DNA from: Desulfovibrio sp.
GTDB lineage: Bacteria; Desulfobacterota; Desulfovibrionia; Desulfovibrionales; Desulfovibrionaceae
Assembly (NCBI GenBank): GCA_016208105.1
Contig: JACQYS010000008.1
Span: forward strand, 1-64,000
Direction: 5' to 3'
DNA: 64,000 nucleotides
Shown here piece after piece: positions 27,886 through 33,932 of the stretch; within the stretch, counting starts at the first letter, position 1; each line of letters begins with the position of its first letter. Made by a program: the position numbers and the translations under genes. The notes below the pieces were generated by a model. That model searched no databases. It worked only from the letters and a program-made list of their open reading frames with translations, and had not been told where the DNA came from.

Positions 27886-29286
27886 TCAGGACTTGAATTC
27901 CTGGGCTTCAATTCCTAACCTTTTCAATATCTTCTGTAAACTCGCCCGTTCGAGCCCGCTCACCCTGGCCGCCTCGGAGACGTTCCCACGGGTACGACCC
28001 AGCAGTTGGTCAACATAGGCCCTGGTGAAAGCTTCCACGGCCTGATTTTTGGCATCCTGGTAGCTGCCCAGGATGCACGCGGGCGGGGCAACCGTTATGC
28101 CCGCTCCCGCGTCAACGGTCCTGGCCGTGGGAGCGTCGATGACGTCGCCCGGGGAAAACACCACCAGACGACGCATGAAGTTCAAAAGCTCCCGCACGTT
28201 TCCGGGCCACTCTCTGCCGGCCAGATACCCAAGGGCGTCCGGGGTGAGCTCTTTCTCCGCGAGGTTCATCTCCTTGCAGGTTCGCTTGAGGAAATGGATA
28301 GCCAAAAGGGGCACATCTTCCCGGCGTTCGCGAAGGGTTGGAGTTTGGATGGTCAGCACGTTCAGGCGGTAGAAAAGATCCTCACGAAAGGACCTGTCCC
28401 TGATCTTCTCCTCCAGGTGCTGGTTGGTGGACGCGATGATGCGCACGTCCACCTTCACGGTCTCGCTGCCGCCTACCGCACGCACCTCCCGCTCCTGCAG
28501 CACCCGCAGGAGCTTGGTCTGGATGTTCATGGGGATATCGCCGATCTCGTCCAAGAGAATGGTCCCGCCTTCCGCAGCCAAGAAAAGGCCCTTGCTGGAC
28601 CGCTCCGCTCCGGTGAAGGCCCCTTTCACATGGCCGAAAAGCTCCGATTCCAGAAGCTGCTCCGGGATGGCCGGGCAGTTTACCGACAACATGGGACCGT
28701 CGTTTCGCCCGCTCAGGCGGTGGATGGCCCTGGCCACCACCTCCTTGCCCGTTCCCGATTCCCCTTGGATGAGAACCGTGTAGTCCGACCCGGCCACCGC
28801 TGATATGGTCTGCTTGAGCCGTATGACGCTTGACGATTCGCCGATGAGCTCGCGCCAGGTTTCCGCTTCGGCCACGGATTCGCGCAGCCTTCGGTTCTCG
28901 GTGATGAGCCGCATGCGCTCCAAGGCCTTGTCCAGGGTCAGAAACAGGTTGTCCGGTTCCACCGGCTTGGTGATGAAGTCGTAGGCACCGGCCTTGAGGG
29001 CCGCCACGGCCGAGCTCACGTCGCCATGCGCGGTGAGCATCACCACTGTGAGCATGGGGTTGCGGGCGTGGGCCCGTTCCAAAAGCTCCTGCCCGCTCAT
29101 GCCGGGCATGCGCAGATCCGTGAACATGAGGTTCGGAATCTTCTCGTCCAGAAGGGCCAGGGCCTGAGCGCCGTCGTGGGCCTGTATGATGTCCAGCAGC
29201 GGATGGCGCGAGCTGATAAGCCGCGCCAGGCCCTTGGTGAAGTCCGGTTGGTCGTCCACTAGCAGAATCGATTCAGGCCGCTTCAC
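27886..29286 (-). CDS. Sigma-54-dependent response regulator (NtrC family)
   Basis: A 466-residue activator. The receiver domain (1-120) has the phosphoacceptor D57 in MFTDLRMPG. The AAA+ domain (about 145-375) carries Walker A GESGTGKE and the sigma-54 contact loop GAFTGA. A Fis-type helix-turn-helix ends the protein ([20 protein letters not shown]). It should activate sigma-54 promoters after phosphorylation by the kinase encoded just upstream. GTG start with AGGAGA upstream; overlaps the kinase gene by 14 bases. A sigma-54 promoter is found nearby at 32468. Confidence 0.95.
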
Positions 29287-31711
29287 GTTTCGTCTCCTGG
29301 GTTCCGGCCAGCGGGAGCCGGACGATGAATTCGGCCCCGCCGTCGCTTACGGCTTCCACGCTGCCCCCCATGTCGTTCACTAGCCCGAAGACCACGGCAA
29401 GCCCAAGCCCGGTGCCCTTGCCCACTTCCTTGGTGGTGAAGAACGGATCGAAGATACGCCCCAGATTTTCAGGGGGGATGCCCGGTCCGTTGTCCGCCAC
29501 GCGAAGGACAGCCAAGCCGTCTTCCACGCCGGTGCTCACCTTGATGCTCCCACCTGTGGGGCTCACCGCGTCCAGGGCATTGATGAGCAGGTTGGACAAT
29601 ATCTGCTCAAGCGAAGTGATGTCCGCCCGGACTTCCGGCATGCCTTCCGGCGCGTCCACTTCCAGGCTCACCCCTTCGGCCGAGGCCTGGGCCTGGAAGA
29701 CGCCCGCCGTTCTGCGGGCCACAACAACCAGGTCACAGGTGCCGTCCGCGCCCTTCTTGGGCCTTACGAAGTCCAAAAGGTCCCGCAGCACCTTCTGGGC
29801 CTGGCGGGTGTGGCGCAGAATGACTTCAACGTCTTCACGGCTCTCCTCCTGGCCGGCGGATGCCTTGAGCAGTTCCCCATAGAAAAGGATCACCCCCAGG
29901 GGATTGTTGATTTCGTGGGCCAGACCCGCAGCCAACCGGCCCACTGCAACGAGTTTCTCGTTCTGCTGGGCCAGCTCCTGCATGCGCCTTTCTCCCGTTA
30001 CCTCGCGGGCATAGGCCACCAGACGCCCTCCCCTGCCCCGGTATTCCGGCAAGGGATAGAGCGATACCAAAAACGTCCTGTCGCCGGGCAGCTTCACTTC
30101 CCGAACCAGAGGGCCGGCCAGCACGAAGTCCGGCAGCGGCTGTCCGGGAACTATTCCCAGAGACTGCCGCAAGCTCGTGGTCGCGTCCCCCGCGCTTCGT
30201 GCACCGGAGGCCGACAGCTGCCTGGCCGATTCGTTGGCCAGCACCACCTGACCTTGGCCATCGAGCAGGGCCACCGGATCGCTTATCCCCTCGAATACGG
30301 CGTGCAGCAGGTCGTTCTGGCGGATAAGGTTGTCCAAGGCGTCCATGTTCTCCATGACCACGCCAAGTTGTTGCCCTACCGCCAGGAGCACTTCCCTGGG
30401 CATTGGGTCGGGCAGGTTCTCTTTGGTCCAGCACAGGGTAAGCATGCCGTGGGCAGCGCCTGAAGTCTGCACCGGAATATAGGCGCAACCGTCCGTGAAC
30501 ACCGTTTCCCCACGGGCGGCCATCCTCTCCCAGGACTGCGGCATGGGAGCCTGGCCGTCCTGATCCGGCCAGGAATAGGAGGCACCGGCGGACATGGTGC
30601 AGCAATAGGTCACCCTGTGCGCGCCGAATCTCTTGCCTATTAACCCCAGGCAACCGTCCAGAATCTCCTTGCGATCCCTAGTGTGATTCAAGCCATTGAG
30701 CAAATTGACGAAGAGCCCCACATCCGCCCTTCGGGCTTCCGCTTCCCGGCTCAAATCTCTGGTGCGTCCTTCCACCATGCCTTCAAGGTTGGATGCGTAG
30801 GACTGCAACTGCCACCTGGCCTGCCTCAGGCTTTCCGCGAACTGCTCCATGGACGCCAGCATGAGCTCGATCTCGTCCTTGGATTTATCCAGGGGGTGAG
30901 GTTTGGGTGCGATGGCCGCCTCGCTGGCAGCCTCCGGGAAGTGGCGGCCCATGAGCGACAGAGCGCGGTGAAGGTTGTGCACCACCAGACGGTTGAAGAA
31001 AACGTAGATGGAAGCGAACAAGCACAGGGTGCCAACGCTGAACATCAGCACGAAACCAAGCGTGGCTCCCTGAATGCGCATGGCAGTGGCCTGCATGGGC
31101 AGCACCACCACATGAGCCCCGGCAAGTTCGCCTTCCTTGCGGTTGAAGCCGCGCTCCGTGCCGAATGTCTCGATGAGGTCCTTGGGAGCCTGGGCCGGGT
31201 CTCCGTGGCAGCGCAGGCAGAATCCCTGGTAGCGGACCGGCTGGGCCATGACCAGGTATTCATGACCCTGCTCCTTGATGAAGGCTTCCCCCCATTGCTG
31301 GTAAGGGTCTGCGTTGAAGCGTTCGATGAAATCGCGTTCCAGGCCCACGGCCTCCAGGTCCGGGCTGCGCGCTCCGATGGCCACTCGTCTGAAGCGGTAG
31401 TCTCCATGTGCTTCCTGGCCGGAGGGTCCCATGGCGGCCCGGGCCAGAGCCGTGCAGGACATCGCCTCGAGAAGCCCCTGGTCCTCAAGGAGCGTCCCGG
31501 TGATCACGGGGCGGAGATTGTCCTGCACGTAGGCGTGCAGGGACTCCACACCCCGCAGGATGACCTGAGCCTTGCCCCTGGCTTCCTGCTCCAGGGTCTC
31601 ACGCAGATACTGCTGCAAGAGGTACACGAAGAATATCCCGATGACCGCCATAATCGCCGCCAAGCCCAGGATGAACTTGGTCTGGAGGTTGCGGGGCTTG
31701 AATATGTTCAT
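29273..31711 (-). CDS. Haem-binding (DUF3365) sensor histidine kinase
   Basis: An 812-residue membrane kinase. TM1 at about 14-34; periplasmic DUF3365/Tll0287-like domain with a c-type haem site CLRCH at 165-169; TM2 near 213-235. Then come a HAMP-like/coiled segment, a GAF-like region (about 325-475), a PAS domain (about 480-575), the dimerisation domain with phosphoacceptor H599 in [11 protein letters not shown], and the ATPase domain with [16 protein letters not shown] and GTGLGLA. The haem suggests sensing of redox state or a gas. Partner is the sigma-54 regulator. ATG 31711 is chosen over one 13 codons upstream. Confidence 0.9.
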
Positions 31712-31818
31712 CGTTTTGCTGTCCTGAGTCGCCGCTTGAAGCGGCAACACGATTTGGTTCGCGCGTCACAGTGAAGCCGGTCTTGACGGACTGCCTCCGT
31801 CGGGACACTGTCGTCAGC

Positions 31819-32343
31819 ATGGACGCCAGCAGCGAAACTCCACGCACCTGCTTGGACGACGGCTACGAAATCTTCTGGGCCACCCCTGAGGTGGCTGTGG
31901 GAGCTATGCCCTGCAAGCCCGGCCACCTGAAACTGCTTCATGCCCACGGCATCAGCGCCGTGCTCAACTTGTGCGCCGAGTTTTGCGATCTGCCTGACAT
32001 CGAGCGCGATCACGGCCTGCACGTTCGCTACCTGCCCATCGACGACATGGGCGTGCCCGATCCAGGCCTGCTGGACGACGCATTGGCCTGGCTGGACGAG
32101 CAACTGGCGCACGGCGGCAAGGTCTTCATCCACTGCCGCTTCGGCATGGGCCGCACGGGCACGGTGCTGGCCTGCTGGCTGGCCCGCCGGGGGATATGCC
32201 TGAGCCAGACGGCTGGCTGGCGGGCAACCCCAGTTTCACATGAGCAGCACCGTTTCGTCAGAAGTTACCTGAACCGCCTGGGAATAAGCCCCCAAACAAA
32301 CGGTCTGTGGAAGCATCTCAAAGCCTGCCTCTTTGGAAACTGA
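31819..32343 (+). CDS. Dual-specificity/tyrosine phosphatase-like protein
   Basis: A 174-residue protein with the Cys-dependent phosphatase P-loop HCRFGMGRTGT (HCX5R) near the middle, and the upstream aspartate loop DDMGVPDPGLL as general acid. It resembles bacterial dual-specificity phosphatases related to kinase/phosphatase signalling. The ATG at 31819 is used; an in-frame GTG at 31771 is the alternative and neither has a good ribosome binding site. Divergent from the haem kinase gene. Confidence 0.8.
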   Translation: MDASSETPRTCLDDGYEIFWATPEVAVGAMPCKPGHLKLLHAHGISAVLNLCAEFCDLPDIERDHGLHVRYLPIDDMGVPDPGLLDDALAWLDEQLAHGGKVFIHCRFGMGRTGTVLACWLARRGICLSQTAGWRATPVSHEQHRFVRSYLNRLGISPQTNGLWKHLKACLFGN

Positions 32344-32467
32344 GTTTCCCAGAATGCATCCTTAAGAACGCACCCTGCAAACTCAGGTACGCAAAAGAAC
32401 GATTCTCTGTCCATCTCTATTTTTAGTAGAACAATGATTTCAAAGTGTTAACCAAAACGACCCACAT

Positions 32468-32483
32468 TGGCATCCACTTTGCT
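32468..32483 (+). promoter_or_regulatory. Sigma-54 promoter
   Basis: TTGGCATCCACTTTGCT: GG at 32469-32470 and GC at 32481-32482 with exactly 10 bases between, matching the -24/-12 consensus TGGCAC-N5-TTGC with one mismatch. Predicted transcription start about 32494. A sigma-54 activator gene lies 3.2 kb away on the other strand. Confidence 0.75.
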
Positions 32484-32493
32484 TAATGAGAAT

Positions 32494-32637
32494 CGGGTTG
32501 GTTGTGGTGGGGGATGCCGCGAGAATTAGAGCGCTCGCGGAAGTCCTTCACTCGAGTCGAGCGCATCCGGCCTCCCGCCGGGCCTCTTCCCTCAGGGCAG
32601 GGCCGCGAAGGTGACGACCTTCGCGGCCCTATATTTT
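32494..32637 (+). ncRNA. Candidate sigma-54-dependent small RNA
   Basis: About 144 nt from the predicted start to the T tract. Structure visible by eye: a G-rich 5' end (GGTTGGTTGTGGTGGGGG, 32496-32513) able to form a two-tier G-quadruplex; hairpin CCGCGAG/CTCGCGG (32517-32540 region); hairpin CCGGC/GCCGG (about 32569-32584); and the 14-bp terminator stem. No ribosome-bound frame ends before the terminator. No known RNA family was recognised. Function is unknown; regulation by the nearby haem-kinase/regulator pair is a guess. Confidence 0.55.
32599..32637 (+). terminator. Strong intrinsic terminator of the small-RNA unit
   Basis: A 14-bp perfect stem (AGGGCCGCGAAGGT and complement, loop GACG) followed by ATATTTTC. 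Confidence 0.85.
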
Positions 32638-32678
32638 CACTTGCCTTTCTGAAACCCTGCTTTATCCTTCTCTAATAC

Positions 32679-33932
32679 ATGTCGCCGCTAGCCAAAGATA
32701 TCAGCCAGGCCTGCCGTTTCGAAAACCGTGTGGACATCCGTTGCGAACTGATGCGCCTTCTTGAAGACGCACCGGACGCCGTGCGAGTGGCTGTCCTGCA
32801 CCTTATGGTTTCCTTGAAAACGAGCCTGGACGTCCTGGTCAAACGTCCGGACTTCCAGGACGTTGCAAAACCCGTCCGCAACTGGGCGGAACTGCTCACC
32901 GGGCTTACGGAACTTCGCCTGGACTTAGACAGGATAAAATCTTCCCGCCTGGCCAGGCTGCGCCATTGCCACCCCCATTTCATACAGCTCGAACACCGCT
33001 TTGAACTCCTTAAGCGCGCCTACGAGTCTTCCACGCTCATGATCGAAATCATCTACGCCCTCATCGCGGCCGGACAGGAGTTCACCACTGCCGAGGAAGT
33101 TCTGGAGCAGTCCGGTGAGATCCTGCTCCGAGAGCTGGGGGCGGACCTGTACGTCTGCCGCCTGCGGGACGACGAAGGCAGCTGGATCAACGTGGCGGCC
33201 AACGACTCCGAAGACAAGCAGACCCCCATCTTCGTCTGGGCCATGGAGGATTCGCTCCCCAACCACCCGGTCATGCAGGCTGTGCACGAACGGGGCATCT
33301 TTCACGTTCTTTCCAACGACCTGCGCGGGCTGGAACGCGGAGGAGAATCCGTGGACTGCATGGCCTACCACGAGGGCTACCGCTCCCGCCTGGCCTTTTT
33401 GCTCCGTACCGACTGCGAGGCGTTCGGCGCCATAAACCTCTATTCGCACCAGCCCGGTTTTTTTGACCGCTTCGATTCGCAGTTCCTGGCGGACGCCTCC
33501 AAGATCGTTTCCCTCACCGTGGGCCGCCAGCTTGAGGTCGGCAAGGACGCCCTGGCCAAGGCGGCGGGCGGCATGGCCCACGTGGGCAACAATGTGCTGG
33601 GCATCATGATGAATTACAACTCCCTGGTCATGGAGGAGCTGGAATACCTCTCCGGCGAAGTGAAGTCCGCCCTGGGGAGGACCCTTCCGGACAGAGACGT
33701 GGAAGGCCTGGCCCGCGAGATCGCTTCCCTGCGCAAGCTGCTCATCGAGCTGGACCTGGACCGCAAGGTCAATTCCCTCCAGGGAGTTGCCGAGGCCATC
33801 CTGCGCTTGAAGGCCGCCATCGAGAACCTGCTTTCCCAGGTGAACAAGCCCGTGCTCATGCCCTATGTGCGCGGCCAGGAAGTGCTCGACCTGGAGCCTT
33901 CCCACTCCCTGCCTGCCGGCCACCCGACTTAA
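32679..33932 (+). CDS. GAF-domain protein with histidine-kinase-like dimerisation segment
   Basis: A 417-residue cytoplasmic protein. The N-terminal 120 residues are helical and unrecognised. A GAF-type domain spans about 125-285 (AAGQEFTTAEEVLEQSGEILL through YSHQPGFFDRFDSQFLADA). It is followed by AKAAGGMAHVGNNVLGIMMNY, which resembles the phosphoacceptor helix of histidine kinases (H near 303), and a second long helix to about 390. There is no ATPase domain. It may be a phosphotransfer or GAF sensor adaptor. Translation start has no evident Shine-Dalgarno sequence. Confidence 0.6.
   Translation: MSPLAKDISQACRFENRVDIRCELMRLLEDAPDAVRVAVLHLMVSLKTSLDVLVKRPDFQDVAKPVRNWAELLTGLTELRLDLDRIKSSRLARLRHCHPHFIQLEHRFELLKRAYESSTLMIEIIYALIAAGQEFTTAEEVLEQSGEILLRELGADLYVCRLRDDEGSWINVAANDSEDKQTPIFVWAMEDSLPNHPVMQAVHERGIFHVLSNDLRGLERGGESVDCMAYHEGYRSRLAFLLRTDCEAFGAINLYSHQPGFFDRFDSQFLADASKIVSLTVGRQLEVGKDALAKAAGGMAHVGNNVLGIMMNYNSLVMEELEYLSGEVKSALGRTLPDRDVEGLAREIASLRKLLIELDLDRKVNSLQGVAEAILRLKAAIENLLSQVNKPVLMPYVRGQEVLDLEPSHSLPAGHPT

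Follow-up and report, generated by a model that had tools for sequence, protein, structure and literature searches.

In a 64-kb window, the whole stretch of DNA analysed here, the genome G000 (4.18 Mb, 99.99% complete; genus Fundidesulfovibrio, family Desulfovibrionaceae) contains a conserved locus, RNA A, which we propose encodes a sigma-54-dependent, Hfq-independent small RNA that is activated by a haem kinase with an NtrC-type regulator and captures a second RNA, RNA B, linked to pyruvate:ferredoxin oxidoreductase (PFOR). On balance we hold this proposal as a whole to be probable, with considerable room for doubt. Sequence comparison shows that conservation throughout a set of seven Fundidesulfovibrio genomes, comprising G000 and six others of the same genus, extends to the promoter and the upstream site, to the RNA and its pairing potential, and to synteny. 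An initial annotation had marked the segment as a candidate sigma-54-dependent small RNA; the element, its spacing and the terminator were all found at the positions it gave, and its core interpretation is supported. The features are collected in Table 1.

Table 1. Features of the RNA A locus and of its predicted partner (window positions unless a contig is named)
Feature	Position	Strand	Remarks
NtrC-type response regulator, probable RNA A activator	27886..29286	-	Response_reg + Sigma54_activat + HTH_8; ortholog with RNA A in 7/7 genomes
Sensor histidine kinase, Tll0287/DUF3365 c-type haem Cache domain (CLRCH)	29273..31750	-	Pfam; motif in 7/7 orthologs
Putative upstream activator site, imperfect palindrome TGCATCCTTAAGAACGCACCCTG	32355..32377	+	conserved 7/7; consensus TGCRTTC-N4-GAACGCACCCTG
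Sigma-54 -24/-12 promoter element TGGCATCCACTTTGCT	32468..32483	+	GG-N10-GC; TGGCA and TTGCT invariant in 7/7 genomes
RNA A, predicted ~144-nt non-coding RNA	32494..32637	+	covariance model 7/7 genomes; no conserved ORF; folding z -4.1
RNA A 5' G/U-rich pairing region GGGUUGGUUGUGGUGGGGGAUGCCGCGAG	32495..32523	+	antisense to RNA B loop and stem; most conserved part of RNA A
RNA A hairpin 1, CCGCGAG/CUCGCGG	32517..32540	+	single-sequence and alignment folding; 5' arm also in RNA B duplex
RNA A hairpin 2, CCGGC/GCCGG	32567..32581	+	folding; compensatory changes between species
RNA A intrinsic terminator	32599..32637	+	14-bp stem; several pairs change in step or via G-U
Sigma-70-like promoter TTGCCT-N16-TATCCT of GAF-hrcA-grpE-dnaK operon	32641..32668	+	conserved 7/7; not part of RNA A
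RNA B, predicted unannotated terminator-ended RNA	G000:C22:472965-473107 (L041 9966-10108)	-	conserved in 7/7 Fundidesulfovibrio genomes

The RNA A locus and its promoter

Inspection of TGGCATCCACTTTGCT places GG at 32469-32470 and GC at 32481-32482 with a spacing of 10, exactly the arrangement first reported, and in all seven genomes the element sits about 12 nt ahead of the predicted RNA A start, as expected for the promoter of a sigma-54-dependent sRNA. Sigma-54 itself (rpoN) is encoded in G000. We note that the window holds three equal-scoring sigma-54 consensus sites, i.e., two besides that of RNA A, and that the promoter match taken alone in the window is weak evidence, not beyond chance. 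The previously described terminator is likewise present: its stem of 14 bp occupies 32599-32630, and ATATTTTC comes directly after it. Terminator-like matches in the window number 9 against 9.8 expected from shuffles, and so are not above chance. What places the locus above chance is the conservation of its promoter and of RNA A in seven genomes amid otherwise poorly alignable DNA, TGGCA and TTGCT being invariant at the right spacing in each of them. From the upstream gene to the promoter the DNA is largely unalignable across the seven genomes, with the exception of one site. The initial annotation had named a kept terminator without a kept promoter as the pattern that would refute a sigma-54-dependent sRNA; that pattern is not what the genomes show, since the promoter has been retained along with the body of the RNA and the terminator.

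The conserved block GGGTTGGTTGTRGT... opens within two bases of the predicted RNA A start and is followed by the hairpins and the terminator (7/7 genomes). For the 144-nt RNA the predicted folding energy is -77.2 kcal/mol, better than that of all 200 dinucleotide shuffles (z = -4.1); folding gives two internal hairpins, and the consensus fold includes pairs that have changed on both sides between species. When relatives were searched at the DNA level, each of the six other Fundidesulfovibrio genomes yielded the element, and no match elsewhere was convincing. The covariance model, a check proposed with the original call, was built from the same seven genomes that the DNA search had found independently; it matches all seven (E 1e-28 to 1e-34) and revealed no homologue in 240 family genomes outside Fundidesulfovibrio. 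Its matches beyond the genus, of which the best had E 2.7e-6, turned out when examined to be hairpins of unrelated terminators. Rfam covariance scans of RNA A at gathering and relaxed thresholds gave no match, Qrr, GlmY/GlmZ, CrcZ and 6S included, in agreement with the earlier remark that no known RNA family is recognisable here.

The upstream palindrome and the kinase-regulator pair

The one alignable site upstream of the promoter is an imperfect palindrome about 120 bp from the RNA A start, followed by a conserved TGYAAACTC. In genome-wide scans allowing 0-2 mismatches it occurs only upstream of RNA A in each of the seven genomes, the second match in G003 being this palindrome again, seen from its opposite strand. 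The nearby sigma-54 activator and haem kinase of the initial annotation are borne out by their Pfam domains, and the pair accompanies RNA A in all seven genomes, the regulator being 79-88% identical. In the kinase the Tll0287-like domain (Pfam E 7e-31) is fused to a signalling module, and its CXXCH motif is intact (as CLRCH) in the orthologs of all seven genomes, as expected for an sCache_heme kinase. In G005, which lacks an intervening phosphatase gene, the pair is directly divergent from RNA A. The genome encodes many further sigma-54 activators, and the assignment of this one to RNA A therefore rests on synteny, from which we consider it the probable activator; it would act via the palindrome.

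With respect to gene order, a dual-specificity-phosphatase-like gene (window 31771-32343) lies between the kinase and RNA A and is the gene missing in G005. In G002 an insertion of about 10 kb (G002:C3:87400-100700; L086, L131) parts RNA A from the kinase-regulator pair and carries genes for a CheB/CheR-type hybrid kinase, a second kinase, an FdhD-like protein and an aldehyde ferredoxin oxidoreductase-like protein.

DUF3365/Tll0287 domains are reported to bind c-type haem, and a signalling-associated member was recently described as a selective nitric oxide (NO) sensor (2026 preprint, PMC12889525). By analogy with this one characterised relative, NO may be the signal of the kinase described here.

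In other Desulfovibrionaceae genera, regulators 61-64% identical to this one, together with a related kinase, adjoin genes with sigma-54-like promoters and not RNA A. The divergent genes beside such pairs (L140, L142, L143, L146) encode UspA and a PF03601-like transporter in g25 and another membrane protein in g48; the intergenic region L142 has a GAGTTTACAGG motif in common with the Fundidesulfovibrio upstream site. For D. vulgaris, the described targets of sigma-54 response regulators are transporters and the lactate/pyruvate operon DVU3025-3033 (PMC3333781, PMC4641369). Since the related regulators elsewhere stand beside protein genes, the comparison leads us to suggest that in Fundidesulfovibrio the regulator has come to control an sRNA.

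RNA B, its predicted pairing with RNA A and the proposed circuit

The RNA A covariance model gives a weak second match in G000 (C22:473051-473207) that contains a nearly exact RNA A 5' block. At this second locus a covariance model of RNA B matches all seven genomes (E 1e-26 to 1e-33), with compensatory and G-U changes in the fold, and the terminator GCGGGGGGAG...CTCCCCCCGC-TTCTTTTT together with the fold indicates the minus strand. A reading of the locus on the plus strand, which would make it paralogous to RNA A, was rejected: the terminator and the wobble pairs favour the minus strand, the count of paired cells (215 vs 207 of 224) lending by itself modest support. The predicted RNA comprises an outer stem, in which compensatory changes are seen, as well as an inner stem formed by CUCGCGGC/GCCGCGAG, a nearly invariant C-rich loop of 27 nt, AUCGCCCCACCACA(A)CCCCGCCCUA, a second C-rich strand and the terminator. 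That second single strand, CCACGCUGCCCAC, is invariant. RNA B, like RNA A, found no match in Rfam scans at gathering and relaxed thresholds, and its covariance matches outside the genus (best E 1e-4) were on inspection unrelated terminator hairpins.

RNA B begins about 100 nt past the stop codon of PFOR (TIGR02176), and its locus follows that gene closely in each of the seven genomes. Between the two there is a hairpin and no T-rich terminator, and RNA B may therefore be released from the PFOR 3' UTR. The hairpin, strong and conserved, stands right after the PFOR stop (L041 10162-10200, minus strand), lacks a T-tract, and might serve in processing or mRNA stability instead of termination.

Nucleotides 2-30 of RNA A are complementary to the RNA B loop and one arm of its inner stem over about 28 bp with small bulges in all seven genomes, the extended and conserved complementarity expected of a sponge or antisense pair, and the invariant part of RNA A coincides with its pairing part. 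Among 288 family genomes the core of the motif shared by the two loci, 21-22 nt long, is confined to Fundidesulfovibrio. The predicted duplex of the 31-nt RNA A 5' end with RNA B has an energy of -48.7 to -59.7 kcal/mol across the seven genomes, compared to shuffled means of -31 to -39 (SD 3), and in sliding scans of the DNA examined per genome RNA B is the top partner after RNA A's own complement in every case. In the pair of F. agrisoli genomes (G001, G004) the duplex contains two A-C mismatches, which make it weaker. When both RNAs are cofolded at full length, by a method that cannot represent loop-loop contacts, the net energy clearly beats shuffled partners in only three of the seven genomes, because both are strongly folded and stems must open. 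Hfq (PF17209) had no match in the 99.99% complete G000, the same search being positive in five of the control genomes; the presence of sigma-54 and absence of Hfq fit a long GC-rich duplex that would form unaided by a chaperone.

We put forward the following scheme as a proposal. The c-type-haem sensor kinase, probably sensing nitric oxide or a related redox signal, would phosphorylate its NtrC-type partner, which would bind the palindrome and fire the -24/-12 promoter. We infer that RNA A is then transcribed and terminates at 32637, and that in vivo its first 30 or so nucleotides would invade the C-rich loop of RNA B and the supporting stem. The likeliest result would be the sequestration or destruction of RNA B while the kinase is active, RNA B itself probably being an sRNA that derives from the PFOR 3' UTR and pairs through C-rich loops. 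RNA A as the sponge or antisense of RNA B is preferred over the reverse direction and over direct action on the PFOR mRNA, because RNA B accounts for nearly all of its 5' end and because its promoter belongs to the signal-dependent kind. We hold only tentatively, and indeed doubt more than we credit, the complete Hfq-free relay in which a periplasmic c-haem (NO) kinase and NtrC-type regulator have this one sRNA as their only direct target and it captures a C-rich sRNA released from the PFOR mRNA; were it true, nitrosative stress would be tied to pyruvate metabolism through RNA-RNA titration.

The complementarity of the two RNAs is symmetric and thus silent on who regulates whom. Alternatively, then, RNA A might be an ordinary trans-acting sRNA that acts on mRNAs by its G/U-rich 5' end, with RNA B as its sponge, and pairs of sRNAs are known, e.g., CjNC140/CjNC110 (PMC10470494). 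A conserved mRNA target of either pairing region did not turn up among BLAST matches, which do not amount to a full target prediction, and we regard this reading as unlikely, yet as the most serious of the competitors. The weak BLAST matches to the RNA B complement were scattered coding matches not common to the species, and were rejected as mRNA targets.

The next alternative, also unlikely in our estimation, is a direct effect of RNA A on the PFOR mRNA, RNA B being merely the 3' UTR of that mRNA and the pairing altering its stability. The want of a T-rich terminator between the PFOR stop and RNA B agrees with this, but the compact conserved fold of RNA B and its own terminator suggest a stand-alone product.

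Two further readings seem to us improbable, and equally so. One takes the segment for a leader or attenuator of the GAF-hrcA-grpE-dnaK heat-shock operon, immediately upstream of which it lies in all seven genomes, and the terminator U-tract is indeed poor in G001 and G004. Against this, the sigma-70-like promoter just past the RNA A terminator, 10 bp ahead of the ATG at 32679, is conserved in all seven; RNA A is therefore best read as a separate gene. Moreover, no conserved alternative antiterminator is apparent, and RNA B accounts for the invariant 5' end instead. The other takes the 25-nt motif common to both loci for a DNA element (a protein site or duplicated fragment) that has nothing to do with RNA pairing. 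There are only two copies per genome, one at the RNA A start; yet the motif begins near the predicted transcription start, at RNA B it falls within a loop that is single-stranded, and certain differences between the loci keep the pairing via G-U. Lastly, a small protein can be dismissed: the 53-aa ATG frame present in the window varies in frame and length between species through indels and has no properly spaced ribosome-binding site, in accordance with the original statement that no coding frame is supported.

As a separate observation on the downstream operon, the -10 of its promoter ends 10 bp before the ATG of the GAF-like gene that precedes hrcA (window 32641-32681) in all seven genomes, which leaves no room for a ribosome-binding site and suggests that in each of them this gene is translated from a leaderless mRNA.

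Relation to known small RNAs

The targets and mechanisms of sRNAs in Hfq-less sulfate reducers are poorly known, and here the sequence lets us name an sRNA together with its likely activator, the activator's site and the RNA with which it likely pairs. RNA A could be an output of the c-haem NO-sensing Cache kinases that have recently been described, and could connect PFOR, at the entry to pyruvate oxidation, with post-transcriptional control.

Qrr, GlmY/GlmZ and CrcZ-type sRNAs are sigma-54-dependent and depend on Hfq or RapZ. RNA A resembles them in its sigma-54 promoter and its proposed control by a response regulator, and GlmY and CrcZ in the decoy or sponge logic, but differs in having no Rfam match and in residing in a genome without Hfq. 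The direct sRNA-sRNA interaction of CjNC140/CjNC110 (PMC10470494) is similar to the one predicted for RNA A and RNA B, whereas the RNAs and organism are unrelated and one partner here is sigma-54-driven. Similarly, the 3'-UTR-derived sRNA that is released from glutamine synthetase mRNA (PMC9731577) originates, as RNA B would, at the 3' end of a gene of central metabolism; RNA B has a distinct structure, and its release from the PFOR mRNA is a presumption.

The initial annotation considered sigma-54-dependent small RNAs to be few, which needs correcting: they are not so rare, and the sigma-54 regulome of D. vulgaris includes four ncRNAs (PMC4641369), located downstream of DVU0653 and DVU0679 (Dv_sRNA2) and upstream of DVU3282 and DVU2357 (PMC4641369, PMC3333781). 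The class of sigma-54-driven sRNAs is thus already known in Desulfovibrio (PMC4641369, PMC3333781). Like RNA A, these RNAs occur in the same bacterial family and lie beside or under a sigma-54 enhancer-binding regulator. Compared by description, RNA A is set apart from them by its position upstream of the kinase-regulator operon, its confinement to Fundidesulfovibrio and the identification of an antisense partner; and in the papers searched there appears to be no description of the RNA A and RNA B sequence families, of the palindrome specific to this locus or of the conserved antisense partner beside PFOR.
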